A stretch of 49,455 nucleotides of DNA, taken from Treponema sp. (lineage in GTDB: Bacteria; Spirochaetota; Spirochaetia; Treponematales; Breznakiellaceae). The position numbers and the translations under genes are program-made. The notes under the pieces were generated by a model, which saw only the letters and a program-made list of their open reading frames with translations, did not search any database and had not been told where the DNA came from. The stretch covers positions 1 through 49,455 of the forward strand of contig JAITFK010000212.1 of assembly GCA_031281555.1 (NCBI GenBank), given 5' to 3'. How positions within the stretch are numbered: the first letter of the stretch is position 1; each line of letters starts with the position of its first letter. Below, piece after piece: positions 1-28,626 of the stretch.

Positions 1-167
1 GGAGGCGGAGGAGGAAGTTCAGCTAAATCGGTTAATTTCATTACCCGCGGCTCAAGAGTTTCTTCCTGAATGTTATTTTTTACATCGAATACAAGGAAAA
101 ATATTACAATAATATGCAAAGCAGCGGTAATAATAAAAACAAAGAACTTTAACTTTTTTTCATTCAT
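1..167 (-). CDS. tonB: TonB-like energy transducer, N-terminal part (truncated by window edge)
   Basis: Not in the ORF track. Reverse-strand translation from ATG at 167 gives MNEKKLKFFVFIITAALHIIVIFFLVFDVKNNIQEETLEPRVMKLTDLAELPPPPP: N-terminal TM anchor followed by the start of a proline-rich linker. It lies directly downstream of exbB/exbD/exbD. Confidence 0.75.
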   Translation of the reverse strand, partial: MNEKKLKFFVFIITAALHIIVIFFLVFDVKNNIQEETLEPRVMKLTDLAELPPPP

Positions 168-561
168 TGTTTTTTACCACAAAACTTACAACACGGTATT
201 GGAGAAGCTGTAAAATCTCAAGCACGCTGTTGACTTTTTCATAAGGGGTATTGCGATCGGCGATAATGTGTACCCTGGTGTCAGGAGCGTTAAGATACAA
301 CTCCGTTATTTTATTTTCCAATGACAAATAATCAGAAGCTTCTCCGTCAAGAAATATACTGCCTTCAATATTTATCCATACTTCAAGATTCTTTTCCGCG
401 CTTGTTCTCAACGCGGTTTTTGCTTCCGGGTATTCAATTTTTACTTCTTTTCTGTAATTAATCAGCGCTACCAACATTATAAAAATCAGGAGAAGGAAGG
501 CTACATCGGACATTGAATTAAGCGGAATGAAGAACTCTTTCTTCCTGCGTCTTAAATTCAT
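160..561 (-). CDS. exbD: ExbD/TolR family biopolymer transport protein
   Basis: Probable start MNLRRRKKEFFIPLNSMSDVAFLLLIFIMLVAL: single N-terminal TM helix with the ExbD-type S-D-V-A-F-L-L-L-I-F motif. The ORF track start at 645 is probably too long. Confidence 0.85.
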   Translation of the reverse strand: MNLRRRKKEFFIPLNSMSDVAFLLLIFIMLVALINYRKEVKIEYPEAKTALRTSAEKNLEVWINIEGSIFLDGEASDYLSLENKITELYLNAPDTRVHIIADRNTPYEKVNSVLEILQLLQYRVVSFVVKNNE

Positions 562-962
562 GGACTGTCCTTTTTCATTGTAAATGAAAACGAATCTACT
601 TTCATATCCTGTACAAGTTCCACAAATGAAACAACATTCTGCCATCGAGCCTGTCTGTCAATTGCAATTAACACGGCTATATTCGGATTGTTTTTTTGAG
701 CGCCTGAAATAAGGCTTTGGGCTGATGAAATATTTATTGCGTCATCTTTGTAAATAATCCTTCCACTGCTGTCCATTTCAAAACGAAGGAGGTCTTCTTT
801 TAATATTAACCTTGTTGAATTTTTTGCGGGAAGATTTATCAAAAAGCCTTTATTTATATTAAAACCCGCGATTACTATAAAATAAATAATCAAAAGAAAC
901 GCTACATCGCTTGCGGAGCTTGATTCAAGTATAGAATGTTTTTTAAGACGTTTTATTTTCAT
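558..962 (-). CDS. exbD: ExbD/TolR family biopolymer transport protein (second copy)
   Basis: MKIKRLKKHSILESSSASDVAFLLIIYFIVIAGF: ExbD-type TM with SDVAFLL. Overlaps the next exbD by 4 nt. Start chosen at 962. Confidence 0.85.
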   Translation of the reverse strand: MKIKRLKKHSILESSSASDVAFLLIIYFIVIAGFNINKGFLINLPAKNSTRLILKEDLLRFEMDSSGRIIYKDDAINISSAQSLISGAQKNNPNIAVLIAIDRQARWQNVVSFVELVQDMKVDSFSFTMKKDSP

Positions 963-1644
963 TTTGTCTCTTTGTTCTTGCCTTTTCAAACTGGACAATT
1001 GCGGCTTGTTCCGCAAGCTGGGTAATTAATACAGAACAGGCTCTTTCAACTCTTGAAGCAAACCTGTCAACAATATGGCTGAAAATAGAGTGAGAGATCA
1101 TTGCGATAATCGCGATAACAAGACCGAATACTGTGGTAATAAGAGCTTCGTAAATGCCGTTTGCGACTATTTGCGCGTTAACTTCGGTCGCTTCGGCAAT
1201 TGATCTAAACGCGCCGATCATTCCGGAAACTGTACCGAGAAAACCTGTAAGCGGCGATAAAGAACCAAGAGCTGTAAGAAAATTAAATCCGTTTTCAAGT
1301 GAATTTACGCAATTTATAGCTTCTGTTTCCGCAGCTTTTTCGGCGCGGTGTTCGGAAAAGACAAAACCCTTTGTAGTATGCTGCATAAGCGCAAGTAAAA
1401 TTCTAGCTCCCATGCGCCTGCCTTTAAACGCGGAAAGATAACTTGCGGCTCCTTTATAATCACGTTTTTTAACAAAAACAGATACTTTGGCTGAAAGGTC
1501 GTCAACACGGAGATTATGAAATAAAAGATAAATCGCACGTTCCAATGAAATTGCGACAGTGGCGATTGAGAAAAATAAAAGGGGCCACATAAAGACGCCC
1601 CCAAGTTTAAAAAGTTCAAGTACTGAAAAAGACGCTGTTTCCAT
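943..1644 (-). CDS. exbB: MotA/TolQ/ExbB proton channel family protein
   Basis: Three predicted TM segments and the family motif LTALGSLSPLTGFLGTVSGMIGAFRSI...GIYEALITTVFGLVIAIIAMISHSIF. GAGG ribosome-binding site upstream. Confidence 0.9.
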   Translation of the reverse strand: METASFSVLELFKLGGVFMWPLLFFSIATVAISLERAIYLLFHNLRVDDLSAKVSVFVKKRDYKGAASYLSAFKGRRMGARILLALMQHTTKGFVFSEHRAEKAAETEAINCVNSLENGFNFLTALGSLSPLTGFLGTVSGMIGAFRSIAEATEVNAQIVANGIYEALITTVFGLVIAIIAMISHSIFSHIVDRFASRVERACSVLITQLAEQAAIVQFEKARTKRQNENKTS

Positions 1645-1696
1645 TGTGTATTACCTCATTTTTACGATAATTATCCGTAAACAAAAATTCCGTATA

Positions 1697-2545
1697 TTAT
1701 TTTTTTTCAAGAATTATCTTGTTGCTAAGCAATTCTATTATATTATCCCATTTATATTCCATATATATCCACGCAAGCGCTTCTTCCCAATCCCTTAACA
1801 GTGTCCCTGAATTTCGTACATAGACAAGTTCGTCAGGAAAGACGCGCTCAGTATAGCTTGTATTCCAGCGTATGTCTTCCGCTTTTTTAAACTGATCATT
1901 ATCTTGCAGCCAATTTGCGGGTCTTTTCTTTTTTGAAACTGTTTCAGGAAAAAGGATTGGTTTCCAGTATTTTTCAAAATTTTCCATATTATCAGTTTCT
2001 GCGGCCTTTGAATTTTCAATTAAGCGCATCCATTCAACAAGCGTTGAAACGCGTTCTCTTCTGTTTCGCAAGGCTGTTACCGCTTCCGAACTTGTAATAC
2101 GTGTATCGTAACGTTGAATACGCCCAAATGTAATTTGTGCAGGCTCGATTTTTCCTTTTAACATAAAAACAGCTGTTTTTACAAAGGATAGAGAGCCTTC
2201 TCCAAGAAGTTCTAACGTGAATTCATTCCAGCCGTGTGTATTGCCGCCAAGATACTCAAGCGAATTAATATGAATAATTTCATTGCGGTCAGGTACAGTA
2301 CCGTAAAGCTTCATCATTGGGAATTTATCCATTGTTATCCTGATTGACTGCTCTCCGTTCTTTCTTTCAACTACAAGGATTTCAATTTTAAAATCTTCTT
2401 CTGACGAATGGTATGCCGATATAGTTTTTTCCGCAAATACGCTTCTGTCAACTACACGGCCTGTTTTCTCCATTAACGAAACGCATCCTGTAAATAAAAA
2501 AAACGTGGTAAAAATTAACAAATTAATTTTACTGACCTTCTTCAA
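1697..2545 (-). CDS. Predicted lipoprotein of unknown function
   Basis: MKKVSKINLLIFTTFFLFTGCVSL: signal peptide with lipobox-like FTGC. Lies between the TonB-dependent receptor and exbB. Confidence 0.7.
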   Translation of the reverse strand: MKKVSKINLLIFTTFFLFTGCVSLMEKTGRVVDRSVFAEKTISAYHSSEEDFKIEILVVERKNGEQSIRITMDKFPMMKLYGTVPDRNEIIHINSLEYLGGNTHGWNEFTLELLGEGSLSFVKTAVFMLKGKIEPAQITFGRIQRYDTRITSSEAVTALRNRRERVSTLVEWMRLIENSKAAETDNMENFEKYWKPILFPETVSKKKRPANWLQDNDQFKKAEDIRWNTSYTERVFPDELVYVRNSGTLLRDWEEALAWIYMEYKWDNIIELLSNKIILEKK

Positions 2546-2562
2546 TATTATCTCCCAAATAA

Positions 2563-5154
2563 TTAATAGCTATATTTAAACCCGAATGACGGTATGGGAA
2601 TAGGTATGTCATACCTTGCCGTATTGCTTCCTGTGTCTATTTGCCCTGTATACTGGTTAAAGCTTGTATTTCTCTGAGGAGTATAAATTAATGAAAGGAC
2701 ATTTTCTACCGCAATATATATTTCGTATCTTGTTTTTCCGTTCTTATTGCCTCCGAAAATGGAAAATTTTATATCCATAGGAAGCGACGGAGTAGTGCGG
2801 TTTGTTTGATCAACAACGGAAGGCCAGCGGTATTTTTCTATAAAATAACTCTCTGCAGGATTATCTTTATTATAAATTAAAACAGGATAACTTTCAGGAC
2901 CGTCTCCGATACGCCGTGACAGCAGTATACCGGAAGCGATTCCAAGACGCACGTAAATATTGATCTTTTGAACAGGCTTAATGTTCATGACGAGATTGAG
3001 ATAATGGTATCTGTGAAACGACGGAAAATACCAGTCATTTCCGTTGTTTCCGCCTGACATACCCATTGAACCGGATTGTCCTTGAGGGTCGCGGTATTTT
3101 GTCCAATTCCAAGAGTACGCAAGCCAGCCGTCCCAGAAACGGCTTTGAATCTTCTGAAGCATAATGTCAACGCCGAAGATTCTCCCTACTCCGTCAAAAT
3201 TCGGTTTTACTTCCATTTCTTCAAGCCCAAATCCAACAGGAATATACATTCTGTCGAAAACATATTTATAATAGCCTTCTATGTTCAAGCTTAAAGATTC
3301 AGGAAATTCAAGCCTGACGCCGATTATTGATGTCCAGCTTCGATTTGGTTTTATGTAATCAATATTGTATTTTTCTTCCGCGGAAAAAACAGCGTCGTTT
3401 ATTGATGAAAAAAGTCCTGTACCCGCGGATATGTCAAAAGATTTTATTAAATCATGATTTTTAAAGATATTGTAATCAAGATTAAGCCGCGGATTTAACG
3501 CGAGGCTGCTGTACGCGGTAAAACCTTTTCCCTGCAGAATAAAATGATCAATACGAAGGCCAAGTTCGGTATTCAACCGGTTGTCAAATGTGTTGAATTC
3601 TGTAAGAACGTACCCTGAGCTTGTAAAAATGCTGTTTTGCAAATCAGGTGAATATGGTATGTTGGAAGCAATTCTGATATCGTCCCATACAACAGCCGGT
3701 ATTAGCGGAAAGAAAGACTTTAACGCAGACTGTTCTTTGTTTCCGAGGTATGCAAACCGGATATTATCATTTGAAATTTGAGAATCACCTGATGATCTAT
3801 ATTCGTTAAACATTTCCTGTAATCCGGTTGAAATTAAGAGATTTTGTGTTATTTCCCAGTCGTAATCTATCCTTCCCTGTACGTTAAAAATAAAATCTGA
3901 CTGATGTACCGTATTTTCTATATTGTATTGGTAGGAATCGCTAACTCTTGAAAAAGGATATTTATCCATGAATTCTTTGGAAAATTTTTTGTTATGAATA
4001 TTATATGTCATTTTTCCGTTAATAATCGCGTCTTCATATCCGGTTCCTGCTGTGAACTTCAGAAGCATATCAGCTCTCGGATTCCATGCCAATGAAGATG
4101 TTAAAAACCCCTGGTAATTTGTATAATCAAAATCTAAAGCTGTGTCGGTGTTAAGGGCGTCCGTACGGTTTGAGTTGAGGTAACTTACACCGGTGCCGTC
4201 CATGCCCCAAAAGCCTGTTGCTGTAAGTTCAAGCTTATCAGTAAAGCGGTAATTTCCGTTTACTATTCCCGCTCTAATATACGGAGCCTGCCTGATATAG
4301 TTTACAGAATCCAAAGACGGAAATGCTTTAGCAAGCTGTTTTGCGGTCCAAATTACGGGATCGTAGTATGTGATACGCCCCATAAGCAAAACGCCTCCCT
4401 TTCCAAACAAAGGAATAGACAGATTAATATTTGCCGCGCTTGTATTCATACCAAGCTCAAACTGGGTTTCCGTCGGAGAAGGTTTTTTTGATGTTATTTC
4501 AAGCAAGCCGGATATTGTATGCCCGTAACGTGTTGAAAAAACACCGTGTGAAAGCTGCGCACTTTGTACCATCCGCGGATCAAATATGGAAAAACCTCCG
4601 CCCCAGTGGTAAGGGTTATTGATATAATAGCCGTCAAGAGACGCGCTCATATCGCCGGGATGACCGCCGCGAATACTCGGCTGGGCGCCGAAAACTCCGG
4701 TATAGCTTACGCCCGGAAGCAGTTTAATAGTGCTCATAACATCTTCTACGATGCCGATTTCAGCTGTCTGGGCAATATCTTTTGCGCTTACCGCAATGCT
4801 TCTGCCTGTTCTGGTTTCACTTGAACCGGGTTTAGATGTTTCAATTACAAGTTCACGGCCTTGCAAAACGCCTGATAGGTTTAATCCAATAAAGAATTCA
4901 TCGCCTGTAACCGGGATTACAATTCTTCCTGTTTCATATCCTGGATAGGCTGCCTGAATTAAAACCTGCCTGCCGTCAGGGGCCTTTATTACTGCTTTTC
5001 CGTTAATATCGCATATATATTCATTCCCTTCCATACGGATAACAGCGCCTTCCAGCGGAAGATCAAGATCAACGTCTTTTACGGTTACCGTAATATCGCG
5101 GGAATAAACAGAGAAAGTTAAAAGTAAAAATATAATTACAAAACTTTTTTTCAT
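2563..5154 (-). CDS. TonB-dependent outer membrane receptor with N-terminal carboxypeptidase-regulatory-like domain
   Basis: Signal peptide MKKSFVIIFLLLTFSVYS; CarboxypepD_reg-like segment; plug motif (IVEDVMSTIKLLPGVSYTGVFGAQPSIRGGHPGDMSASLDGYYINNPYHWGG); long beta-rich barrel ending in an aromatic residue (FGFKYSY). Confidence 0.88.
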   Translation of the reverse strand: MKKSFVIIFLLLTFSVYSRDITVTVKDVDLDLPLEGAVIRMEGNEYICDINGKAVIKAPDGRQVLIQAAYPGYETGRIVIPVTGDEFFIGLNLSGVLQGRELVIETSKPGSSETRTGRSIAVSAKDIAQTAEIGIVEDVMSTIKLLPGVSYTGVFGAQPSIRGGHPGDMSASLDGYYINNPYHWGGGFSIFDPRMVQSAQLSHGVFSTRYGHTISGLLEITSKKPSPTETQFELGMNTSAANINLSIPLFGKGGVLLMGRITYYDPVIWTAKQLAKAFPSLDSVNYIRQAPYIRAGIVNGNYRFTDKLELTATGFWGMDGTGVSYLNSNRTDALNTDTALDFDYTNYQGFLTSSLAWNPRADMLLKFTAGTGYEDAIINGKMTYNIHNKKFSKEFMDKYPFSRVSDSYQYNIENTVHQSDFIFNVQGRIDYDWEITQNLLISTGLQEMFNEYRSSGDSQISNDNIRFAYLGNKEQSALKSFFPLIPAVVWDDIRIASNIPYSPDLQNSIFTSSGYVLTEFNTFDNRLNTELGLRIDHFILQGKGFTAYSSLALNPRLNLDYNIFKNHDLIKSFDISAGTGLFSSINDAVFSAEEKYNIDYIKPNRSWTSIIGVRLEFPESLSLNIEGYYKYVFDRMYIPVGFGLEEMEVKPNFDGVGRIFGVDIMLQKIQSRFWDGWLAYSWNWTKYRDPQGQSGSMGMSGGNNGNDWYFPSFHRYHYLNLVMNIKPVQKINIYVRLGIASGILLSRRIGDGPESYPVLIYNKDNPAESYFIEKYRWPSVVDQTNRTTPSLPMDIKFSIFGGNKNGKTRYEIYIAVENVLSLIYTPQRNTSFNQYTGQIDTGSNTARYDIPIPIPSFGFKYSY

Positions 5155-5159
5155 GCAGC

Positions 5160-7055
5160 TTATTTTTCTTCAAGTGTAACAACGCCATCCCAATTTTCAG
5201 GCGGAGGATTGCGTTCAAATCCAATTGAACGTTCAAGATAGAGCCTTGAAAGAAAATCATTATTGTTTGTTTCAATAGCTTTTTCAAAATATTCCTGCGC
5301 CAATTTCCATTCGCGCAGATAAAAAGTACGAAGCCCTTTATTATAATTATCAAGCGTTTCCCTGTTAATAAGCAGGGAGGGCACAGACGGCAGATTTGCG
5401 TTTTTTCTTGGCACATGGCTTTCTTCTGCGCCTGAAAAGCCGGTATAAACAGTATATATACCGACAGGTTTTACTTTTCCTTTAACACGGACATTGTCTA
5501 TTTGGCGGTGGATAAATTTATCTTTTGTTGTTTCATATACATACTCTGTTATTATCAAAGGGCGGCGGTATTGTTTGGTAAGACTTTCTATTCGCGATGC
5601 AAGATTGACAGTATCGCCTATTACAGTGTAATCCATTTTATTTTGAAAGCCTATGTTGCCTAAAATGCATTCGCCGTAGTTAATCCCGATCCCAATGTCA
5701 ATATTATTATGTGAAATTTTTGAACCGGATGAATTCATTTTATCAAGAGCAGCAAGCATTTTTATAGCGGCGTATATTGCATTTTCCGGGGAATTCTCCA
5801 TGCTTGCGAATGCACCGAATACAGCCATAATCTCATCGCCTATAAATTTGTCAATGTGTCCGCCTTCGCTCATTATTTCATTTCCCATTTTTGAAAAAAA
5901 GGCGTTCAGAAAATCAACGACTTCCTGCGCTATTGAATGTTCAGAGATTGCCGTAAAGTTCCTGATGTCGCTGAAAAGAACGGAAACATTCCTGCTTTCA
6001 CTGTTACGTCCTTTATTTACGGTTTCATTGATTATTTCATCCATTACGTCGACAGGAACATAACGCGCAAATGCAATACGGGTATTTTTCTGAAGTTCCG
6101 CAATTTCGTGCATGGAAAGCGCGTTTGCTATAACAGGAGACGCAGCTCCTGTAAATACATTGATATTTTCCATAATTGACGGAATAAAATATTCGTTAAT
6201 GGTATTAGCTATATGTATTGAAGCAAAATTTTTACCTGCAATTGTAAGAGGGAGGGTAATATATGACATTAGTTTTTTGCTGTTTGTTCCTGTAGGATGG
6301 AAATTTTTTGTCTTTTTTTCAGATAATTTATAATCAGGAAAATGCTTTAAAAAGTCTGATATGCATATTTCAAAAAAATTAGTTGATATTTCCTTTGTAA
6401 ACTCTCCGTAATTTGCAGTGTATATATAAAGCGTCCTGTTTGTACCTCTGATCATCATTGTAATAATTTCAGCTTTACAGACTTTATTAAGCAAATCAAA
6501 AATACCGTTTGCTGTTATTTCCATGGAATGTACCTTGCTTGACAAATCTGTAAGCATTCCGATTATTGTCGTCTGAAAAAGCTTGTTATCCAAAAGATTA
6601 TTGACAATTTCCATGATGGAATCATCGTTGATTTTTCTGCCTTCCCTTTCTATCGCGGTAAAATCAATATTTTCCGATAAAGGAAGGATGCCGGCGATGG
6701 TTTCACGCAGTAATTCTAAATTATCAGGCGATTTTTCTATATAAGCATCGGCTCCTGCCTGACTGCCCCAGAACTTATCCTTTGTTTCGTCAAGGCTTGT
6801 GAACATGATAACGGGAATAACTTTTGTATTTTTCCGTGATTTTAAAAGACGCGTTGCCTGATAACCTTTTAATATCGGCATCTCAATATCGGTAATGACA
6901 AGATGAGGCATAAAACTGTATACTTTTTTTATTCCTTCAAATCCGTTAACTGCTCTCTGTACTTCATAATTTTGCGAAGTTAAAAATGAAGTAAGCATAT
7001 CGGCAAAAATGTCTGAATCTTCCAAAATTAAAATGCGTTTTTGGTCATCTGACAC
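5160..7055 (-). CDS. Response regulator receiver - GAF-like - class III adenylate/guanylate cyclase fusion
   Basis: N-terminal REC (LILEDSD...LVITDIEMPILKGYQ...VIMFTS...YIEKS). C-terminal class III cyclase catalytic domain (NVSVLFSDIRNFTAISE, IDKFIGDEIMAVFGA, MDYTVIGDTVNLASRIE). Confidence 0.92.
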   Translation of the reverse strand: MSDDQKRILILEDSDIFADMLTSFLTSQNYEVQRAVNGFEGIKKVYSFMPHLVITDIEMPILKGYQATRLLKSRKNTKVIPVIMFTSLDETKDKFWGSQAGADAYIEKSPDNLELLRETIAGILPLSENIDFTAIEREGRKINDDSIMEIVNNLLDNKLFQTTIIGMLTDLSSKVHSMEITANGIFDLLNKVCKAEIITMMIRGTNRTLYIYTANYGEFTKEISTNFFEICISDFLKHFPDYKLSEKKTKNFHPTGTNSKKLMSYITLPLTIAGKNFASIHIANTINEYFIPSIMENINVFTGAASPVIANALSMHEIAELQKNTRIAFARYVPVDVMDEIINETVNKGRNSESRNVSVLFSDIRNFTAISEHSIAQEVVDFLNAFFSKMGNEIMSEGGHIDKFIGDEIMAVFGAFASMENSPENAIYAAIKMLAALDKMNSSGSKISHNNIDIGIGINYGECILGNIGFQNKMDYTVIGDTVNLASRIESLTKQYRRPLIITEYVYETTKDKFIHRQIDNVRVKGKVKPVGIYTVYTGFSGAEESHVPRKNANLPSVPSLLINRETLDNYNKGLRTFYLREWKLAQEYFEKAIETNNNDFLSRLYLERSIGFERNPPPENWDGVVTLEEK

Positions 7056-9270
7056 TGTTTCCTCCGATTAATTCATTTACAGCTTCAAGCAGGTTATGAT
7101 TATTAAATGAATTTTTGATAATATAACGCGACGCGCCGAGCGTAAAAGCCTTTTTTTGGTCTTCATCATCCGCTTTGGATGAAATAACAATAACAGGAAT
7201 ACCTGAAAGCTCATTGTTCTTTTTTATATTTTCCACAAGCATAAAACCGTCCATGACAGGCATATTTATATCGGTGCATACAAGATCATACTGTTTTGCC
7301 TTAAGAGCTTTAAGAGCCTGAGCGCCGTCAGCGGCAGTATCAACAAGGTAACCTTCCGATGTTAGAATATCGCTTTCAATTTCACGTGTCGGCGTTGAAT
7401 CATCTACAACAAGAATTGACTTTCGTAAATTCTCAAACTCTACAGTTCGTTTTTTCATGTCAATTGTTTTTATGCGTTTTGCCATTTTTATTACAGTAGG
7501 AATATGCATGACGCTTACCATTTCATAATCTTCATTAAGGATAATACCGGAAAATAAAGACATATTTTCCATAAAAGCAGGCATTGTTTTCAGCATCACG
7601 GCTCTCATACTGTCAATATTGTCAACCGCAATCGCCGCAATATCTTCATATGAGCGGACAATAACAATAAAAATAGTGTCGCGCAGCCTGTCAGTTTCCG
7701 CGTTAATACGTAAAATATTGCTTAAATAAAAAAGTTTTATTATATGTCCGTTATATTTAATTTCAGGACGGTCAACAACTGTAATAATATCTTCCCTGTT
7801 TAATAGCATTATTGTTTCAACAAAATTCGCGGGTATAATAAAACGTAAACCTCCGCATTCAACAGGGAATCCCATGAGGACAGCTATGGAAAGGGGAACC
7901 ATGATTGTAAAAGTTGTACCTTTTCCAAATACGCTTTCTACTACTATACTGCCTTTTAAAGCTTCAATACTGTCGCGTACAACGTCCAGTCCTACGCCTC
8001 TTCCGGAAATGCTGCTAACTTTTCCTGATGTTGAAAAACCGCTTTTAAAAATAAAACTTATCAACTCCTCATTGGAAATAGAAACGGCGGCTGCTTCTGA
8101 AACAAGGCCTTCTTTTATTACCTTTTGTCTTATTTTTTCATGATCAATTCCGTGTCCGTCATCTGAAATTACAATCTTCATGCTGCCGCTTTCGCGTGAA
8201 CATGTTATGGAAAGGTTTCCTGTTTCGTCTTTTCCCGCCGCAATTCTTTCACTTGGCGTTTCAATTCCATGATCGATTGAGTTACGAACCATGTGCATAA
8301 AAACATCGGAAAGGCCTTCAATAATGTTTTTATCAATTTCGTTTTCTTTTCCTGTAATGGTAAAATGCACTTTCTTTCCCAATTCCTGTGAAAGTTCATA
8401 AACATAACGCGGATAACTGTCGAAAATTGTAGAAAGCGGAAGAGTTCTGAGTGAGATTACGCTGTTATAAGCGCCGGTTATGCTGTTTCCCGCGTCAATT
8501 GAATAATTTTTTATAGAAGAATTTAATCGGTCTCCAAGCCGTTCCAACTTTCTTAAGTTTGACGCAAGCGGAAGATCCTGTTTAATGTGATCTTTTATTA
8601 GTTTGGAATATTCCTTTAACGATTTATTGAATAATTCGCTTTCTTTTAAAATGCTTTTTGCGGCTATCTCCAGCGATTGTAATGAAGCGATACTTTTTAT
8701 AATTAAATTTATTTTATCAAGAGACAAACGTATACTATTGCTTTTCGCGTCTTTTTTTGTTTCTTTTTTGTTTTTTTCCGTGTTGTCTTCAGTTTCATGT
8801 TGATTATTTTGAGCAGAAATTTCTCCGTTATGAAGACCGGTATATTCTTTTTGTTCGTTAACGGTTTCCGGCAGTGAAAAATCTTCATTTGCCGCCAAAA
8901 GCGAAAGATTTTTTACATACTCGTTGATTTCAATATTGTCGTTTTTAGTCTGTTGAATTTCTCCAAATCCTGATTTTATTAAATCAAGAGAAAAAAGGAC
9001 AAGTTTTACGGCGTTTTCAGAAAGTCCGATACGCTGTTCCCTGAAAGCGACAAAGATACTTTCAAGAGAATGGCTTAACTCTTCTATACGCTTAAATTCA
9101 AGCATACGCGAAGAGCCTTTCAGCGTATGCAGCGCACGAAGAAGGGTTGCAAGATCATCTTCAACCGAAAGACCGTCTTTAATATCAAAGATCAAAGTCT
9201 CAACAAGGTTAACATTTTCAAGCCCTTCTTCGGTATATTTTTTAATATATTTGTCTTTGTCAATAGCCAT
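7045..9270 (-). CDS. cheA: CheA-type hybrid histidine kinase (HPt-HATPase-CheW-REC)
   Basis: HPt ALHTLKGSSRML; P3/P4 with HMVRNSIDHGIETPSER, DDGHGID and GRGVGLDVVRDSIEALKG; CheW-like P5; C-terminal REC ILVVDDSTPTREIESDIL...LVCTDINMPVMDGF...VIVISSKA. Confidence 0.94.
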   Translation of the reverse strand: MAIDKDKYIKKYTEEGLENVNLVETLIFDIKDGLSVEDDLATLLRALHTLKGSSRMLEFKRIEELSHSLESIFVAFREQRIGLSENAVKLVLFSLDLIKSGFGEIQQTKNDNIEINEYVKNLSLLAANEDFSLPETVNEQKEYTGLHNGEISAQNNQHETEDNTEKNKKETKKDAKSNSIRLSLDKINLIIKSIASLQSLEIAAKSILKESELFNKSLKEYSKLIKDHIKQDLPLASNLRKLERLGDRLNSSIKNYSIDAGNSITGAYNSVISLRTLPLSTIFDSYPRYVYELSQELGKKVHFTITGKENEIDKNIIEGLSDVFMHMVRNSIDHGIETPSERIAAGKDETGNLSITCSRESGSMKIVISDDGHGIDHEKIRQKVIKEGLVSEAAAVSISNEELISFIFKSGFSTSGKVSSISGRGVGLDVVRDSIEALKGSIVVESVFGKGTTFTIMVPLSIAVLMGFPVECGGLRFIIPANFVETIMLLNREDIITVVDRPEIKYNGHIIKLFYLSNILRINAETDRLRDTIFIVIVRSYEDIAAIAVDNIDSMRAVMLKTMPAFMENMSLFSGIILNEDYEMVSVMHIPTVIKMAKRIKTIDMKKRTVEFENLRKSILVVDDSTPTREIESDILTSEGYLVDTAADGAQALKALKAKQYDLVCTDINMPVMDGFMLVENIKKNNELSGIPVIVISSKADDEDQKKAFTLGASRYIIKNSFNNHNLLEAVNELIGGNSVR

Positions 9271-9271
9271 T

Positions 9272-10801
9272 TTATTCTGTTTGTACCTTTGCTTCTCCCT
9301 GTGAATTGGTAAGCAAAGCGCCGAGTTTTTCTATCAGCTGTGAAAGATCTTCGGCCGATGAAGTTGCGACTCTTGTTGACTGTAAAAAATTAGAAAGACC
9401 CTTGGAAATATCCGTTATAGCAATATTTATCTGCTCTGTTGATTTTTGTTGTTTCTGGGTTGATACCGTTATTGTCTGCGCCTGGTTAGCTGTTATTTCA
9501 GCGCCGGAACGGACTTCACGGAATATATCTTCAAGTTCTTTTATAAGGTTGTTGCCTTCGTTGATCTTGTCGGCGCTTTCTTCGCTGGAAATGATCAATG
9601 AAGACGAAGAGCTTTGAATTTCCTCCGCTTGATCGCGTATTTGTTTTGTAAGCGAGGCAATATCGTCAGCAAGCCGGTTTACCTCGCTTGCGACTACAGC
9701 GAAACGTTTTCCTTTTTCCCCGGCGCTCGCCGCTTCAAGAGCGGCGTTAAAGGCGATAACCTTTGTTTGATCTGTAATTGTATTTATGGATTTAATAATG
9801 TCGCGTATTTTCGCGATTTTGTTCCCAAGAGCGATGATTCCTGAAATAATACCGTCGTTTTTTTTCTTGATATCTTCAAGTTGATTTACATTGCGTTCAA
9901 GGACAGAAAAACCCTGAATAACATCGTTTTCCATTTTGGAGGCGATGGTAGCGACGCTGTTTGTTTTAGCGGCTATTTCAACAGCGATCTGCGTATTTTC
10001 ATTGATTGTTCTTTCAATTTCCTCAATGCTTGCGGCTTGATTATTCGCGGTAGAAAAAATATCTTTGGACGAAAGGAAAATTTCATCTGTAGATTTTCTG
10101 ATTGTATCCGCCATGTCTCTTGTTTGTTCAACCGTTCTGGAAGCAGCTTCAGACGCGGAGCTTTCGACTTTTATAATATTGCTCATTAGCGCAAGGTGGC
10201 GTTTACTGGCCATACTGGCAATTATGCCCCCTACTATCATTCCCATGACACGGAAAGTTTCATTGTAAAGCGGAAAACGTACATCTATGGTTTTTGAATC
10301 AACCATAAAATAGTAAGGTAAATCAATAACATTTCTGTTTACGATAATGACTATTGAATAGCAGATACCGGCGTATATACCGGAATAAATCGCGCATGAA
10401 GAGCTGTATCTGAAACAGCCTGTCAGAATTAACATAAGGTAGAACATAGCTAAAATGGAAAGAAAAGAAACAGGCGGATAGTTTTCATAATATGTACAAA
10501 TGACCCAAATACTCACGCTGATGATTGTCATATCAAGAGTAACGCAGAAATATTTATACGCTCTGTGAAGTACTTCTTTTTTACGTAAATAAAATAATAA
10601 AAATAACGAATACAGAAAAAAGATAACAGTACAAACATGGGTACGCCATGGAAGATACCCGTAGCCTTCTATGTTTCTGGCTATGGAAATGACCGGTATA
10701 CCGGCTGCATAAATGAAAGCGAGCGTAAGACGGAAATAGTTAATTATTTTTTCGCTGTCGCATTCATCGTTTTTAATTCTTTCCCTGATTTCACTCTGCA
10801 T
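9272..10801 (-). CDS. Methyl-accepting chemotaxis protein with multi-TM N-terminal domain and no recognisable periplasmic sensor
   Basis: Several hydrophobic TM helices in residues ~20-200, then a coiled-coil signalling domain with tip sequence ITDQTKVIAFNAALEAASAGEKGKRFAVVASEVNRLA. Confidence 0.88.
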   Translation of the reverse strand: MQSEIRERIKNDECDSEKIINYFRLTLAFIYAAGIPVISIARNIEGYGYLPWRTHVCTVIFFLYSLFLLFYLRKKEVLHRAYKYFCVTLDMTIISVSIWVICTYYENYPPVSFLSILAMFYLMLILTGCFRYSSSCAIYSGIYAGICYSIVIIVNRNVIDLPYYFMVDSKTIDVRFPLYNETFRVMGMIVGGIIASMASKRHLALMSNIIKVESSASEAASRTVEQTRDMADTIRKSTDEIFLSSKDIFSTANNQAASIEEIERTINENTQIAVEIAAKTNSVATIASKMENDVIQGFSVLERNVNQLEDIKKKNDGIISGIIALGNKIAKIRDIIKSINTITDQTKVIAFNAALEAASAGEKGKRFAVVASEVNRLADDIASLTKQIRDQAEEIQSSSSSLIISSEESADKINEGNNLIKELEDIFREVRSGAEITANQAQTITVSTQKQQKSTEQINIAITDISKGLSNFLQSTRVATSSAEDLSQLIEKLGALLTNSQGEAKVQTE

Positions 10802-12797
10802 TTAATATCTCCTTATCTGTGGTTTTGTATTTTGAAAGAGTTTCTTTTAATACAACTGACATATTATTCAGTTTATCAATTGCGGAAGACGCCATTGAGG
10901 TGGCGGAAACAAATTGATTTACGCTTCCAGATATTTCTTTTAACGCAGTAAAAATCTGGGCGGAAGCCAGTTCCTGCTGTTTGCTGATGCTGGAAATATG
11001 CATGGAATGGACAGCTACATTTTCCGAAGCCTCTACAATATTTTCAAATACTTTTTTCTGCTCAACTATCCTGTTAAAACCTTCATCAATTGTACGGGAG
11101 CCGTTATCTGCTTCTGTAACAAGAATTTGAGAAGCATCCTGAAGTTCAGTAATTTTTTCTTTTATCTCTGAAACTGAATCTACTACATTATCCGCAAACC
11201 GCCGTATTTCACCTGCTACAACCGAAAAACGCGTACCTGCTTCTCCTGATGATGCAGCTTCAAGCGCCGCGTTAAAGGCAATCAATTTTGTTTTGTCCGC
11301 TATTACGTTGATAAGGTGGACAGTTTCATTAATACTGGAAAGTATGTCCGCAAGGTTTTTTATATTTTCGATTATTTTGGCGTTTTGCAGCTTTATTTCT
11401 TTCATCATATTTTCGTTTGCGTCGCGCAGACTTGCGCCTTTTCTGCTGAGTTCCTGCGTATGAGCCGCTATAACCGCTACCTCTTCGGTTTTTTTTGCGG
11501 CTTGTACGGAAATGTTTCTGTTGTTTTCCATTGTGCTGACAATTTCCCCAACGCTGGTCGATTGTTTGTTGGCGGTAGTTGTTATTTCTTTCGCCGATGT
11601 TGAAAGATCAATTACGGCAGTAGAAACCATATTGGCGTTTTCTGTGAACGATGAGAAAGCAGTATTCAGTTTATTCAGGAAAGCTCCGAGAGCTTTCATC
11701 AATTCGCCCATTTCGTCGCTTGTCACGACTTCAATCCTGGAAGTTAAATCATTATTATCCAGTTTCTGAAAAACTATTCCGATAGTTTGAGTTGATATAT
11801 GAAGATAATGTACAGTAATAATAATAAATAAAAATGCCAGAATAATCGCCAATAGCGCTGTAGTAAGCGATATGGAAAAATGCCGTATATAACTGTTTAT
11901 TCTGTTTGAAATTAAGCTCTCAAGTCTTTCAAAAGACGCTACCTGAAGGCGGTATGCCGCATTATTAGCATGACTTGATGTTTCGTATAACGCGGGAATT
12001 ATTTGCATGTTATTTTCAGTGTTATCAATAATATATTCAGCAGATTTTGCGAAATATTCCATTCTGTCATAACAGGTTTTTAAAAGAAGCTCAAATGTAT
12101 CAAGGTTTTCGATATTGCGGGAATTCAGCGTTTTTATCTTGTCAAATCTGCTCCGTATTCTTACATTATCCGAATGCATTAATAGTTCAACATTTAATTT
12201 AAATTCTTCTTTTCGCTTTTGTGTAAACGCGCCTGTTTCTATGGTTCTAAGTAAATTCCCGATTGTAACAAGCCTGTTTTGCGCCTGGGGCAATTCATGG
12301 ATAGCCGCAGCGATAAGGTATGCGCTTTCAAGTTCGCTGTCTGTAACCAATCCTGATATATCTCCGACATAAATAATTAAATTATAAATATCTTCCATAA
12401 TTACTTTATATGCCCAAAGAATTGTTTCTTTTATTTTTGTATTTTCCAAATGCTCCCAATTTTCAGAAAGCGATTTCATGGAAACAATGAGAGTTTCATC
12501 TCCGAAATATTTTGTATATTTTTCATTTAACTCATCAAGCAAATCAGAAGTGTATTGTTTGGAAAATTCCAAATCACCCGGATCGAGATCGACTGTAAAC
12601 CTGACATATTGCGGAATAATCTGCATAAGTGAAATCGCGGGACGTAAAACTTCAATGCCGCTTAATTCTATTCTGTCTTTTTTTATTGAAGCGTAAGATG
12701 ATGATATAATTGAATAAAATAATATTCCAAGCGGTAATAAAAATGCTGCCACGCTTATTGTCAATTTAGTTGTTATTCTTAAATTTTTAAGACTCAT
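10791..12797 (-). CDS. Methyl-accepting chemotaxis protein with extracytoplasmic helical sensor domain and HAMP
   Basis: N-terminal TM, ~270-aa extracytoplasmic domain, second TM (SLTTALLAIILAFLFIIITV), HAMP-like segment, and signalling tip IADKTKLIAFNAALEAASSGEAGTRFSVVAGEIRRFAD. Confidence 0.88.
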   Translation of the reverse strand: MSLKNLRITTKLTISVAAFLLPLGILFYSIISSSYASIKKDRIELSGIEVLRPAISLMQIIPQYVRFTVDLDPGDLEFSKQYTSDLLDELNEKYTKYFGDETLIVSMKSLSENWEHLENTKIKETILWAYKVIMEDIYNLIIYVGDISGLVTDSELESAYLIAAAIHELPQAQNRLVTIGNLLRTIETGAFTQKRKEEFKLNVELLMHSDNVRIRSRFDKIKTLNSRNIENLDTFELLLKTCYDRMEYFAKSAEYIIDNTENNMQIIPALYETSSHANNAAYRLQVASFERLESLISNRINSYIRHFSISLTTALLAIILAFLFIIITVHYLHISTQTIGIVFQKLDNNDLTSRIEVVTSDEMGELMKALGAFLNKLNTAFSSFTENANMVSTAVIDLSTSAKEITTTANKQSTSVGEIVSTMENNRNISVQAAKKTEEVAVIAAHTQELSRKGASLRDANENMMKEIKLQNAKIIENIKNLADILSSINETVHLINVIADKTKLIAFNAALEAASSGEAGTRFSVVAGEIRRFADNVVDSVSEIKEKITELQDASQILVTEADNGSRTIDEGFNRIVEQKKVFENIVEASENVAVHSMHISSISKQQELASAQIFTALKEISGSVNQFVSATSMASSAIDKLNNMSVVLKETLSKYKTTDKEILNAE

Positions 12798-14352
12798 TTT
12801 TTACCTCTTGTTTTAATGTCAATTTCTTTTTAAGAATTCTTAAAAAATAATCCGGTGAAAACCCGCCCATAAAGCATTCATAATTGTCCTTGTTGATCTG
12901 TTTATCTGTCTGCGAAAGCTCAATACTTTCAATTGCCTTTTTTATTTTATATTCATAACTTGTCCTGTTACTTTCGGCGGAGAGGGATACAATTCTGTAA
13001 TAAGCGGGCCAGAAAAATTTATTCTTGACAGCGGCTTCATGGAAACAGTTAAGAGCTTCTTCTCCCTGTTTAAGCATAAAATAATATTCACCGCGTAAAA
13101 ACTTAGTGTATGCTCCAGAATTTGATTTTTCAAGGAGAGTTAAAATCATGTTTGCAATGTCAAAATACTGATTATGTAAATAATAAAGAGCAGCCGCCGC
13201 AAAACAGCTTCCCGAAATTGAATTTGTATCTCCGTTATTAAGCGTATCCAGTACATTTTCCGCGTTTTGTTTTCCTTCTTCATGTTTTATTATAACGTTA
13301 ATTTCGTTTAAGTTTATGAGAAGCCGCGTATGCTTTAGCGTTTGCGCAGGTGAAGATTTTGTATGTATGGGATCTGTTTGTGAATATTCTCTTTTTTCTT
13401 CATAAGTTTTATTTGCGTTGAAAATACTTTTATTATACGATTTTTGGGCGGGAATATTTATTGGATTCCATTCAGGCACTGGCAAACTTAATGCGCTGTT
13501 TATTTTCTTAAAATAAAAAGTTTTGGATGAACAGCAGTTTAAAAGCAGAGGATGCTTTACAGAAGAAGTTTCCGAGATTCCCAAAAAAAGAAGTCCGTTA
13601 TTATAAAGTGAATCCGCCAGATTATTAATTACATTAAACCTGTTTTTTGTTGAAAAATAAATTAATGAATTCCTGAAAAAAATTATATCATACTGCTTTT
13701 CTAGACCGCGCATTATATTATGAGGAAAAAAACGTATCTTGCTTTGTATACTAGGGGAAATAACATACTCATCTTTGTCTTGAATAAGATATGAATAAAG
13801 AATATGTCTCCAGTTCGCGGAATTGTCTCTAATGGTGTTTAACGTATAACGGGCTTTTCTTGCTGTTTCTATGGCTTCAAGATTGACATCAAAAGCATCT
13901 ATAGAAAAATCAATATTAAGCCCGTTTCTGGAATAATAATCAAATAACATCGCGATGCTGTAAGCTTCACAGCCGGAAGAAACTGCCGCCGAGCATATCT
14001 GAACAGGACGGTTTAATTCGGCAAACCGGGGCATAAGCTCTGTTAAAAGTTCGAAATGCTCGCCTTCTCTGAAAAAATAAGTTTCACTGACAGTCAGGAA
14101 TTTTGAAATTTTAAAAATTTGTTCGCGTGATGTCAGTAGTTTTTCATAGGAAGCCGGATCTTCAATAAAAGAAGAACCGCATGTTTTTTCGAGATATTTA
14201 TTCAAATTTTGAAGAGCTTCGCTTCTTGCCCTTATTCCAAGTATATGTTCAATCCGGTAATATAAAAACAACAGGGAAGGACTTGAAAGTACCTCCGCAG
14301 AAATTTCAACGGGAACTTCATCCGGTAAAACTACAGCCGTGTTTAATACCAT
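12787..14352 (-). CDS. cheR: CheR-type chemoreceptor methyltransferase with C-terminal TPR-like extension
   Basis: SETYFFREGEHFELLTELMPRF, SAAVSSGCEAYSIAMLFDYY (SAM motif), IIFFRNSLIYFS; C-terminal helical repeats. Confidence 0.88.
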   Translation of the reverse strand: MVLNTAVVLPDEVPVEISAEVLSSPSLLFLYYRIEHILGIRARSEALQNLNKYLEKTCGSSFIEDPASYEKLLTSREQIFKISKFLTVSETYFFREGEHFELLTELMPRFAELNRPVQICSAAVSSGCEAYSIAMLFDYYSRNGLNIDFSIDAFDVNLEAIETARKARYTLNTIRDNSANWRHILYSYLIQDKDEYVISPSIQSKIRFFPHNIMRGLEKQYDIIFFRNSLIYFSTKNRFNVINNLADSLYNNGLLFLGISETSSVKHPLLLNCCSSKTFYFKKINSALSLPVPEWNPINIPAQKSYNKSIFNANKTYEEKREYSQTDPIHTKSSPAQTLKHTRLLINLNEINVIIKHEEGKQNAENVLDTLNNGDTNSISGSCFAAAALYYLHNQYFDIANMILTLLEKSNSGAYTKFLRGEYYFMLKQGEEALNCFHEAAVKNKFFWPAYYRIVSLSAESNRTSYEYKIKKAIESIELSQTDKQINKDNYECFMGGFSPDYFLRILKKKLTLKQEVKNES

Positions 14353-14358
14353 AACATA

Positions 14359-15360
14359 TTAATCCGAATTTGCAAGCGATACTAATTTATCCGCAATTTC
14401 ATTCAGCGGTAATATAAACTCTACACAGCCTGTTTCAATAGCGGCCTGAGGCATTCCGAAAATCATTGATGAAGTTTCATCCTGCGCGATAGTTATACCG
14501 CCCGCCTTCTTTACAAACCGTGTTCCCTCGGCGCCGTCGTTACCCATGCCTGTAAGCACTATACTGACAAGAGAATTCCTGTAAATATCTGAAGCGCTTT
14601 TAAACAATATATCCGCGGAAGGTTTCTGATTATTTACAGGTTCGCCGTTATCAAAAGCAATACCTGAATTATTTATAATAATGTGCTTGTCTGTCGGTGC
14701 TACATATACATTGCCGCCGCAGGGTATTGTCCCTTCTTCGGCAAGCTGTATTTTAAGACGTGAATATCCGTTAAGCCATTGCACGAAGCTTTTGTCAAAT
14801 CCTGACGTATTATGCTGTACAAGTAAAATCGGTACCGGAAAGTTTTCAGGAAGAGCGGAACAAAGATGACATAACGCCATTGGGCCGCCTGTAGAGGAAG
14901 CGATTGTAACGCAGTTAATTGTTTTTGCGGCTGCGATGTTACTGTCTGCTTCATTGCGTATTGAAGATTCCTTATTCAGTTTTGATATCTGTTTAAACAG
15001 TCTGAATATCTCATCACGTTTAACATCGCTTAATTGGGAAGTAAACAGATCTTTCGCGAGAAAATCATGCGCTCCGTTAGCTATGGCGTCATACGCCATT
15101 TTCGCGGTATCGTGAGTGCTTATTACTACAATACCGCAGGAACTTGTTTTCCTTATTTCCGTGATAGCGTCAAGCCCGTTCATTACGGGCATTTCTATAT
15201 CCATTGTGATAAGATCAGGGGAAAGCTCTCTCGCCTTGTTTACGCTGTCCTGTCCGTTTTCCGCTTCACCGATAATTTCAAAAGACCCTTCGCTTTCAAG
15301 AAAATCCCTTAAAATTCCCCGTGCAAGAGAACTGTCGTCTGTAATTAATATCTTTATCAT
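14359..15360 (-). CDS. cheB: CheB chemoreceptor methylesterase (REC + methylesterase)
   Basis: REC ILITDDSSLARG...LITMDIEMPVMNGLDAI. Methylesterase with catalytic Ser (IASSTGGP), His (VQHNTSGFDKSF) and Asp (LTGMGNDGAEG). Confidence 0.94.
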   Translation of the reverse strand: MIKILITDDSSLARGILRDFLESEGSFEIIGEAENGQDSVNKARELSPDLITMDIEMPVMNGLDAITEIRKTSSCGIVVISTHDTAKMAYDAIANGAHDFLAKDLFTSQLSDVKRDEIFRLFKQISKLNKESSIRNEADSNIAAAKTINCVTIASSTGGPMALCHLCSALPENFPVPILLVQHNTSGFDKSFVQWLNGYSRLKIQLAEEGTIPCGGNVYVAPTDKHIIINNSGIAFDNGEPVNNQKPSADILFKSASDIYRNSLVSIVLTGMGNDGAEGTRFVKKAGGITIAQDETSSMIFGMPQAAIETGCVEFILPLNEIADKLVSLANSD

Positions 15361-15797
15361 TCTAGTTCCTTTTGCAGGTTTTGTATTAAAACTTCAGGAT
15401 TAAGGAATAAAAACATATTTTTGTCCTGCCTATCCGGTTCAAACAAAATTCCGCTGAAAACACGTGAAATTTTAATCTTGTCCAGTATTTTAGGCATTGA
15501 ATATATTCTTTCTTCCGGAATATTTATTTCATGTTCTATTTCCGTGGTAAGTAAAATGGTTTTATTTTTAATGATGCCGTTGTTTTCGTCATTCATATTA
15601 TTTCTAAGAATTATTCCATGACGTGGAGTTTCACCTGTGTAATCAAAAAGGATGGGAAGGGAAATATATGTATTATGGTTTTCGCTGTTATGTTCGATCT
15701 TTTTATCGCTATTACCGGAGTAAAGCATAATGGAAGAAATATAGGTTATCGGAATCGCAAGATAAAAATTTCCATAGGCACTCAAAAATACTCTCAT
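15357..15797 (-). CDS. Divergent CheW-like adaptor (tentative)
   Basis: Small protein between cheW and cheB with translationally coupled overlaps at both ends. Begins MRVFLSAYGNFYLAIPITYISSIMLYSG, resembling the first CheW strand (F-x-x-x-x-x-x-Y-x-A-I-P). No strong CheW signature beyond that. Confidence 0.5.
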   Translation of the reverse strand: MRVFLSAYGNFYLAIPITYISSIMLYSGNSDKKIEHNSENHNTYISLPILFDYTGETPRHGIILRNNMNDENNGIIKNKTILLTTEIEHEINIPEERIYSMPKILDKIKISRVFSGILFEPDRQDKNMFLFLNPEVLIQNLQKELE

Positions 15798-16285
15798 TGC
15801 GGGCCTATATCCTCTTTTACATGTGATAAAATTTTTTTAATATCCAGAATAAAAACATCACTGCCGTTCCAGCTAAATGAAGACTGAACAGCTTCCGTTA
15901 AATCATTTGAGCCGGCGTTTCTTTCAACATTAAGCAATTTTTCCTGCTGTATGCCGGTAATTCCCATTACATCATCAATAAGAAAAGCGATACGATCAAT
16001 ATCGTCTTTTATAATCAATACCTTACCTCGGGGACTTGGAGTATTGTGAAACAGAAGTCCGATATCGAATAACGCGTATGGTATTGAATAACGGTTTATA
16101 ACGCCTAATATATAAGGCGGCATAAGCGGCAGGGGATATACCGTATCAAAAAGCGCAATTTCTCCTATGTAATGTGACGGAAAACTGTAAAATCTGTTCA
16201 TTAACGAGAAAATCAATTGTTTTTCATCTTCTGAATTTTCATGCGATATTGCAGTACCGTTTGAAGATTCCGTCATATCCGGCAT
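15794..16285 (-). CDS. cheW: CheW-like adaptor protein
   Basis: QLIFSLMNRFYSFPSHYIGEIALFDTVYPLPLMPPYILGVINRYSIPYALFDIGLLF...RIAFLIDDVMGITGI: CheW fold signature (P-PYILGVIN-R). Confidence 0.85.
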   Translation of the reverse strand: MPDMTESSNGTAISHENSEDEKQLIFSLMNRFYSFPSHYIGEIALFDTVYPLPLMPPYILGVINRYSIPYALFDIGLLFHNTPSPRGKVLIIKDDIDRIAFLIDDVMGITGIQQEKLLNVERNAGSNDLTEAVQSSFSWNGSDVFILDIKKILSHVKEDIGPQ

Positions 16286-27165: not shown

Positions 27166-28626
27166 TTGGGAAATCAAAGTCTGCCGAAAATTAACACCAT
27201 GATACTTTGTACCGCCATATGCGGCGCTTCCGTGTTTTTAACAGCATGTAATTCTGATAATTCCGGTAAATTGGGAAACAGCGGAATAGGTTCAAATGAT
27301 GCTCTTAAGGTCGATGCTCTTAAGGTCGATGAAAATGGTTATCTGCGCAACCGTCTGGGTAAGGAAGTAGTACTGCGCGGCGTTAACTTTGGCGGTTGGA
27401 TGATTCAAGAATCGTGGATGTGTCCTGTTTCAGGTACGGACAGACAGTGGGCCAACCTAGACACCATTAATGCCATGAAAAATCAAGGGTTTACCGACGC
27501 GCAAATTCAGGAATTGTTTGATACCTATCAGGATAACTGGATAACAGCCGATGATTTTGATTTTCTTAAATCCAGGGGAGTAAACAGTATCCGCATTCCG
27601 TTTTGGTACCGTAACTTTATGTCGGACGAGTCAGGTACATGGATCAACGGCGATAACGGAAGCGCCGTTGAAACGGCTAACCCGGGTTTCAAGCGGCTGG
27701 ATTGGGCTGTAACAGAAGCAAAAAAGCGCGGTATATATGTCATTCTGGATATGCACGGCGTGCCGGGAGGCCAGTCAATGGATCACTCTTGCGGCACGCT
27801 CGGTAAAAATGAAGTATATACCGATTATACTTATGAGCAGATAACAGTCGATCTGTGGAAAGCTATCGCGTTTCGGTATAAAGATGAAGCCGCAGTTGCC
27901 GCGTACGATTTATTAAACGAACCTCAGAACAACGGCGGGTACTCGGGACCTAACGCTTGGGCGCCCGGAGGTACCAGGGCTGTTTATGAAACTATTCGGA
28001 TGTACGATATTCTTTACCGGGCGGTAAGGTCTGTAGATCCTTTTAAAATCTGCATCATGGAAGGTATATGGAGTATGAATCTGCCTGATCCAAAGTACGT
28101 GCATAAAGGCAGTCCGGATCAAAACAGGCGTTACAGCGGAAAAACAACGGTGTGGGATAACGTCATGTATTCTATGCATCTTTATGACAGCAAATTGAAT
28201 GATATTAACAAAAGGGTAAATGAATTGAAAAAAGCGCGGAATGACTGGAAAGTTGCTATTCATGTGGGAGAATTTAATAACGGCGATAACCAGCAAACTA
28301 ATGCGTATGATCTTTATAACAACAATAAATTTAGCTGGAATATGTGGACATATAAGATCGCGGGCGCAAATATGGGCAACTGGTCTCTGTATCAGGCGGC
28401 AAATAAGGCAAAAGCTGATCCCCGAACCGATAGTTTTGAGACTATCAAACAAAAATGGGGTGAAACGCTTTTAACTTTTTCTTCGGAAACGAATGATATT
28501 AATAACGGTTTTTCCGTGATGAGGGGAATGGAACAGTATTTCAGCCCGGCTATGAATCATACCATTAGTGACGTTATTACCAATTCAAATCAAACAGGTT
28601 TTCCGGTTGACCCGGTTTCAGAATAG
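27166..28626 (+). CDS. GH5-family glycoside hydrolase, predicted lipoprotein
   Basis: TTG start with AGAGAGG RBS; lipobox-like LTAC; VLRGVNFGGWMIQESWMCP, GVNSIRIPFWYRNF, YVILDMHGVPGGQ, AAYDLLNEPQ (acid/base), VAIHVGEFN (nucleophile). Confidence 0.88.
   Translation: MGNQSLPKINTMILCTAICGASVFLTACNSDNSGKLGNSGIGSNDALKVDALKVDENGYLRNRLGKEVVLRGVNFGGWMIQESWMCPVSGTDRQWANLDTINAMKNQGFTDAQIQELFDTYQDNWITADDFDFLKSRGVNSIRIPFWYRNFMSDESGTWINGDNGSAVETANPGFKRLDWAVTEAKKRGIYVILDMHGVPGGQSMDHSCGTLGKNEVYTDYTYEQITVDLWKAIAFRYKDEAAVAAYDLLNEPQNNGGYSGPNAWAPGGTRAVYETIRMYDILYRAVRSVDPFKICIMEGIWSMNLPDPKYVHKGSPDQNRRYSGKTTVWDNVMYSMHLYDSKLNDINKRVNELKKARNDWKVAIHVGEFNNGDNQQTNAYDLYNNNKFSWNMWTYKIAGANMGNWSLYQAANKAKADPRTDSFETIKQKWGETLLTFSSETNDINNGFSVMRGMEQYFSPAMNHTISDVITNSNQTGFPVDPVSE
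27298..27330 (+). repeat. 15-bp perfect tandem duplication in the GH5 linker
   Basis: gatgctcttaaggtc gatgctcttaaggtc gat, encoding D-ALKVD-ALKVD. Confidence 0.9.

Follow-up and report, generated by a model that had tools for sequence, protein, structure and literature searches.

A chemosensory gene cluster lies in the 49,455-nucleotide contig JAITFK010000212.1 of a Treponema sp. (assembly GCA_031281555.1), the whole of which is here called the window. In this cluster the gene following cheA encodes a receiver fused to a class III nucleotidyl cyclase. The cluster is probably of the 'alternative cellular function' (ACF) type with the cyclase as its output enzyme, a multidomain output regulator being found instead of a single-domain CheY. 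Our best reading of the window, which we favour with moderate confidence, is that phosphotransfer from CheA to D56 of the cyclase receiver controls the synthesis of cyclic AMP (cAMP). The evidence comes from the residues of the two proteins, from the linkage of their genes in 107 loci and from the conservation of their sites in four groups of these loci.

The features of the two genes are listed below.

5160..7055, minus strand: receiver (REC), helical linker, GAF-like domain, class III cyclase and short TPR-like tail, 631 amino acids
6708..7034, minus strand: cyclase receiver domain, residues 8-116; E12/D13, D56, T86 and K108 present
6096..6524, minus strand: GAF-like domain of the cyclase protein, residues 178-320; AlphaFold2 topology and Foldseek, no Pfam GAF match
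5469..5999, minus strand: class III nucleotidyl cyclase catalytic domain, residues 353-529; D363/D407 metal residues, K403/T477 purine pair, N484/R488
7045..9270, minus strand: CheA with fused C-terminal receiver, 741 amino acids; P1, P3, P4, P5 and REC
7078..7416, minus strand: C-terminal fused receiver of CheA, residues 619-731; Pfam and residues

The cyclase protein and CheA

Pfam placed a REC domain at residues 8-116 (7.8e-20) and a Guanylate_cyc domain at residues 353-529 (1.2e-28) of the cyclase open reading frame (ORF), which overlaps the cheA ORF by 11 bp, its GTG start lying within the 3' end of cheA. These ORFs and domains confirm the original prediction, made by reading the letters of the window, of a REC domain (LVITDIEMP, D56) fused to a cyclase and adjoining cheA. 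The phospho-site of this receiver is complete, with the acid pair E12/D13, the phospho-acceptor D56, T86 and K108. For the middle of the protein, which had been called GAF-like, Pfam gave no GAF match; support comes from the AlphaFold2 model, which has a GAF-like topology at 178-320 (predicted local distance difference test (pLDDT) of approximately 73-93) and a long helix leading from there to the cyclase, and from Foldseek, which aligned the model with a dual-sensor kinase across 350 columns. In its cyclase part the model has low pLDDT, owing to a shallow alignment, and this poor part was left out of the mechanism.

The metal aspartates D363 and D407, K403 and the pair N484 and R488 are all present, as predicted, and invariant among 24 relatives. 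In alignments to PDB structures K403 and T477 match the Glu and Gly positions of the guanylyl cyclase Cya2, whose purine pair is E-G (PMC4215837), so that the purine pair of the window cyclase is Lys/Thr. The same alignments do not bear out the Lys/Asp pair proposed earlier: D481 (VIGDTVNLA), the candidate for the purine-contacting Asp, is out of register, and T477 holds that position. K403 aligns at Glu488 of Cya2 and points to ATP as the substrate, since the mutation E488K gives Cya2 adenylate cyclase activity (PMC5995499). The residue at the second purine position is Thr in the window and Ser in many cyclases of the sister family. A Lys/Thr pair is the mark of the bicarbonate-responsive (IIIb-type) cyclase subclass, to which the window protein would belong by its residues. 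Most likely, the protein is a soluble class III enzyme of the adenylyl cyclase kind.

CheA was matched by the Pfam families Hpt, HATPase_c, CheW and REC, and no P2 domain was matched by Pfam between P1 and P4. Its key residues are H48 in P1, N330, D370 and the GxG motif in P4, and D624, D667 and K719 in the fused receiver. The earlier account was right in placing CheA next to the cyclase and overlooked the receiver at residues 619-731. This receiver changes the wiring, as two aspartates in two neighbouring proteins, in addition to CheB, can take the phosphate.

Linkage of cheA and the cyclase gene

A homologue search seeded with the cyclase sequence was carried out over relatives, order and phylum, and the DNA flanking the matches was read. 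In 107 loci from several families of Spirochaetota the cyclase gene adjoins a CheA-like gene that has P5 and receiver, the two genes overlapping or being separated by 30 bp or less in 100 of them. The order of cheA and cyclase is fixed, and no inserted CheY was found in the clusters examined. The set contains duplicate genomes, and the cyclase tree therefore holds 103 distinct cyclases. One cyclase locus (L072) was not judged for CheA, as its contig starts inside the gene. Among the 107 loci, L235 was chosen for its CheA; it is a more distant paralogue in which the picked cyclase lies 1.6 kb from CheA. This locus (G039:C76) has CheB, CheR, a CheA with Asp at the position of the P1 histidine, and two tandem cyclases, one with His at a metal Asp position.

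Judged from these sequences the pairing of cheA and cyclase is ancient. The strict linkage gives good support to a cyclic-nucleotide output, which the original prediction had put forward as a parallel to WspE-WspR. The genome has seven other class III cyclases, none with a CheA neighbour, which speaks for a pairing beyond chance. An intact form of the pair is carried by a closed genome of 4,059,867 bp (G062), for which a cultured organism may be available.

Conservation of the sites

The 107 loci were considered as four groups. Group 1, the branch of the window, has 39 loci, in all of which the cyclase residues, CheA H48 and the fused receiver of CheA are intact; the cyclase receiver site is complete in 33. 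Group 2 is a distant branch of 11 loci from other families, where all readable sites are intact and the cyclase receiver site is complete in 11/11. Taken together, these two groups have the catalytic residues DKDTNR in 49/49 fully readable loci, H48 in 50/50, and a complete cyclase receiver site in 44/50.

Group 3 consists of 39 loci, 38 of them from the sister family f3. The cyclase is intact in all and the fused receiver of CheA in 38, and the cyclase receiver site is complete in 0/39, although Pfam still recognised the receiver in the four loci tested. In the 18 loci of group 4, also from the sister family (L228, L229, L230, L231 and 14 more among L237-L253), CheA has no P4 (0 bits) and the P1 histidine is replaced. 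The P4 stretch has shrunk to 10-11 residues in 18/18 with a clean join of P3 and P5, and CheA is approximately 500-560 amino acids long in most loci. P5 with the fused receiver and the cyclase catalytic residues are intact in every one of these loci, and the cyclase receiver site in none. In groups 3 and 4 combined, the cyclase receiver site is thus lost in 57/57, with catalytic residues intact in 57/57 and the CheA fused receiver in 56/57. The acceptor site of this fused receiver reads DD/D/K or ED/D/K in 50/50 loci of groups 1 and 2, 38/39 of group 3 and 18/18 of group 4. CheB was counted only where an ORF had the Ser-His-Asp triad, and decay of the CheB receiver was given no weight.

The sequence identities follow the same division. 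Within the subclade of the window, cyclase receivers have a mean pairwise identity of 0.74, and in the branch of the window the receiver is conserved as well as the catalytic domain. The distant intact branch has 0.66 for the cyclase receiver versus 0.54 for CheA P1, 0.52 for P4 and 0.54 for the CheA receiver. In the sister family the cyclase receiver falls to 0.29, versus 0.58 for the CheA receiver and 0.63 for the cyclase. Identity that is high with a complete site and 0.29 without one indicates strong selection on the receiver where the site is complete, and release from it where the site was lost.

A tree built from the cyclase part allows a single group of kinase-less loci, with weak support. 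Of the genomes showing the kinase-less cluster alone, seven were checked (G176, G178, G224, G184, G144, G251 and G273); each has one other CheA, with a P4 match, in a frame of 791-1322 amino acids, and its size and similarity place it with the flagellar kind. With a P4-bearing second CheA in these genomes, phosphate may pass from a flagellar-type kinase to the retained receiver. In a further locus, L267 (G130:C24), the residues of CheA are degraded in P1, P4 and the receiver, and the catalytic residues of the adjoining cyclase are intact; this looks like a separate decay.

Proposed mechanism and alternatives

From the genes, their domains, residues, layout and linkage, and the conservation of their sites, we infer phosphotransfer, the direction of control and cAMP as the product. 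The receptors, CheW and a second CheW-like protein would build an array with CheA, and active CheA would autophosphorylate at His48. CheA would then donate phosphate to three acceptors, D56 in the cyclase receiver, D667 in the receiver that CheA itself carries, and CheB. Phosphorylation of the cyclase receiver would shift the arrangement of receiver, GAF and signalling helix in the cyclase dimer and in this way set cAMP synthesis, to which the GAF-like domain may supply a second input. Probably, control also runs in part through the fused receiver of CheA and through physical docking of the cyclase to the scaffold that CheA provides, as both were kept by the sister branch.

Phosphotransfer from CheA to the REC domain, the control mechanism predicted originally, is the best reading for the window since the phospho-site is kept in 44/50 loci of the window and distant intact branches. 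It does not hold as a family-wide rule, as in the sister branch cheA and cyclase stayed linked after the receiver site had gone and, in 18 loci, the kinase too. Several observations weigh against it for the window also. In the broad branch of the window D56 is lost in two distinct loci and D13 in four, one locus being common to both. Linkage which outlives the loss of the site (57/57) and of the kinase (18) is no proof of phosphotransfer. The fused receiver of CheA is, to judge by its residues, an alternative and more constant phosphate acceptor. Finally, Thr at the second purine position would fit an adenylyl or a guanylyl cyclase, being found in both alike (PMC4215837).

The main rival for the window is a cyclase that is docked and read out by way of the CheA scaffold. 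According to this explanation, what governs the cyclase is, for the most part, its contact with the scaffold of CheA within the array, and the switch is D667 of the CheA receiver or the conformation of the array; the cyclase receiver serves chiefly for docking or dimerisation, its phospho-site being an extra in some branches. It draws its strength from what persists over the 107 pairs, namely the cyclase active site, P5 and the fused receiver of CheA, which as far as sequences tell form the lasting link except in the decayed CheA of L267. The cyclase receiver site (0/57) and, in 18 loci, P4 and the P1 histidine were dispensable in the sister group, where the docked cyclase is the likelier mechanism. 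However, the branch of the window keeps the full receiver site and conserves the receiver like the catalytic domain, and a module for docking alone would need neither. For the window we regard this explanation as possible rather than probable. We are similarly tentative about a wider formulation, in which the array drives an adenylyl cyclase without phosphotransfer to it, some treponemes have no kinase of their own in the system and use a CheA lacking P4 and the histidine as scaffold and switch, and the window represents a form with a working receiver phospho-site.

It is improbable that CheA mainly feeds the flagellar response regulator in trans, the cyclase receiver being a phosphate sink or a separate input and the operon merely shared. 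Flagella, CheX and stand-alone receivers do occur in the genome, but complete relatives have a separate flagellar-type CheA besides the CheA of the cluster, and the fixed order of cheA and cyclase and the lack of an inserted CheY in the clusters examined argue in the same direction. That the product is cyclic GMP (cGMP) is very improbable: the Thr is compatible with it, but Lys403 is present in every CheA-cyclase pair examined and guanylyl cyclases carry Glu at this first purine position (PMC4215837).

Comparison with known systems

Our literature search, which covered few subscription papers, found no published test of a CheA-adjacent receiver-cyclase in a spirochaete, no published kinase-less chemosensory cluster adjoining a cyclase, and nothing on termite treponeme chemotaxis with a cyclase. 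In the WspE-WspR system of Pseudomonas a CheA with a fused receiver works with a response regulator that makes a second messenger, and there is no CheY. The window is alike in all three respects, CheY being absent from its cluster, and differs in that its output domain is Guanylate_cyc and not GGDEF (Pfam) and in the extra GAF-like domain; the likeness is one of architecture.

REC-mononucleotidyl cyclases were listed among the fused response regulators of CheR-TPR clusters in a census of 2012, and GAF is one of the domains in its lists (PMC3447774). These CheR-TPR/ACF clusters, like the window, have no single-domain CheY and a REC domain fused to an enzymatic output (PMC3447774), whereas the TPR signal in the CheR of the window is under the Pfam cut-off. 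New here with respect to the census are the spirochaete lineage, the fixed gene order, the Lys/Thr cyclase, and the branches with degenerate receiver and without kinase. Chemosensory control of a class III adenylyl cyclase is seen in the Pil-Chp system of Pseudomonas aeruginosa, where PilG activates CyaB and raises cAMP (PMC12632253), and the catalytic domain of CyaB is among the closest solved structures. PilG is a separate regulator of a cyclase that has no receiver, whereas in the window receiver and cyclase form one protein, whose gene adjoins cheA.

For a P4-less CheA in an array there is a precedent in Rhodobacter sphaeroides CheA3, whose phosphorylatable P1 histidine is served by the partner CheA4 (PMC6829392). 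The spirochaete clusters without kinase lack this histidine as well, and in place of a CheA4-like partner only a flagellar-type CheA was seen, elsewhere in the genome. The sister branch may be something newer than the known kinds.

If the proposed control is true, spirochaete chemoreceptor arrays would control a cyclic nucleotide directly, and receptor adaptation by CheR and CheB would sit ahead of cAMP synthesis. Since the pair is kept even where the kinase was lost, how the sensors act on the enzyme is a real question that lends itself to testing. The loci provide a natural series (kinase and receiver intact; kinase intact and receiver dead; neither) with which to ask which contact carries the signal from array to enzyme.

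Other genes of the cluster and the genome

The contig is part of a spirochaete genome bin of 2.49 Mb, 83% complete. Most of its nearest named relatives are bins of Treponema, and their isolate codes suggest termite-gut samples. CheA and the receiver-cyclase belong to an unbroken run of minus-strand genes, in which adjoining genes mostly overlap or almost touch. The other members of this run are as follows.

15794..16285, minus strand: CheW (Pfam)
15357..15797, minus strand: second, sequence-divergent CheW-fold protein (orf146); AlphaFold2 and Foldseek, no Pfam match
14359..15360, minus strand: CheB, REC and methylesterase (Pfam)
12787..14352, minus strand: CheR with a C-terminal extension of approximately 240 amino acids; weak TPR signal in the extension, under the Pfam cut-off
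10791..12797, minus strand: chemoreceptor 1; HAMP and MCP signalling domain
9272..10801, minus strand: chemoreceptor 2; several N-terminal hydrophobic segments and MCP signalling domain
2563..5154, minus strand: TonB-dependent receptor; start 5 bp past the cyclase stop, linked in the subclade of the window only
1697-2545, minus strand: probable lipoprotein, in the downstream block 160..2545
943-1644, minus strand: TolQ/ExbB-like protein, in the same block
558-1016 and 160-645, minus strand: two TolR/ExbD-like proteins, in the same block

The assignment of orf146 comes from its predicted fold (pLDDT 86), for which CheW or CheA structures are the top 18 Foldseek matches; profile-profile comparison gave no link to CheW. 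The gene is kept at the same place in many relatives, and distant relatives have an unmatched small ORF there.

The block of TonB receptor, lipoprotein, TolQ and two TolR proteins (160-5154) is found 3' of the cyclase in the subclade of the window (L048, L051, L056, L057 and L062), where it is usually preceded by one extra chemoreceptor, and was not seen in the other branches looked at. It is possibly a dedicated energised outer-membrane target or input.

The original prediction had no CheY, CheX, CheD or flagellar switch gene. This is correct for the cluster, as none was found among the window proteins scanned and Pfam found no response regulator in the cluster other than CheB and the receiver-cyclase. 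It does not extend to the genome, where there are 64 receiver matches, several of stand-alone size (frames of 121-155 amino acids), and, elsewhere, flagellar genes including FliG, CheX and further CheW genes. Contig C7 of the genome carries CheX with a CheW-CheR fusion, a flagellar-type system separate from the cluster of the window.

A glycoside hydrolase of family 5 (cellulase family) is encoded at 27166-28626 of the window and fits the gut of a plant-feeding host. As a candidate cAMP effector, the genome encodes a protein of approximately 448 amino acids with two cyclic-nucleotide-binding domains (G000:C107:5116-5934). Frames of 413-428 amino acids with two such domains are also present in three relatives, and cyclic-nucleotide-binding domains number seven or eight in those more complete relatives that were checked.

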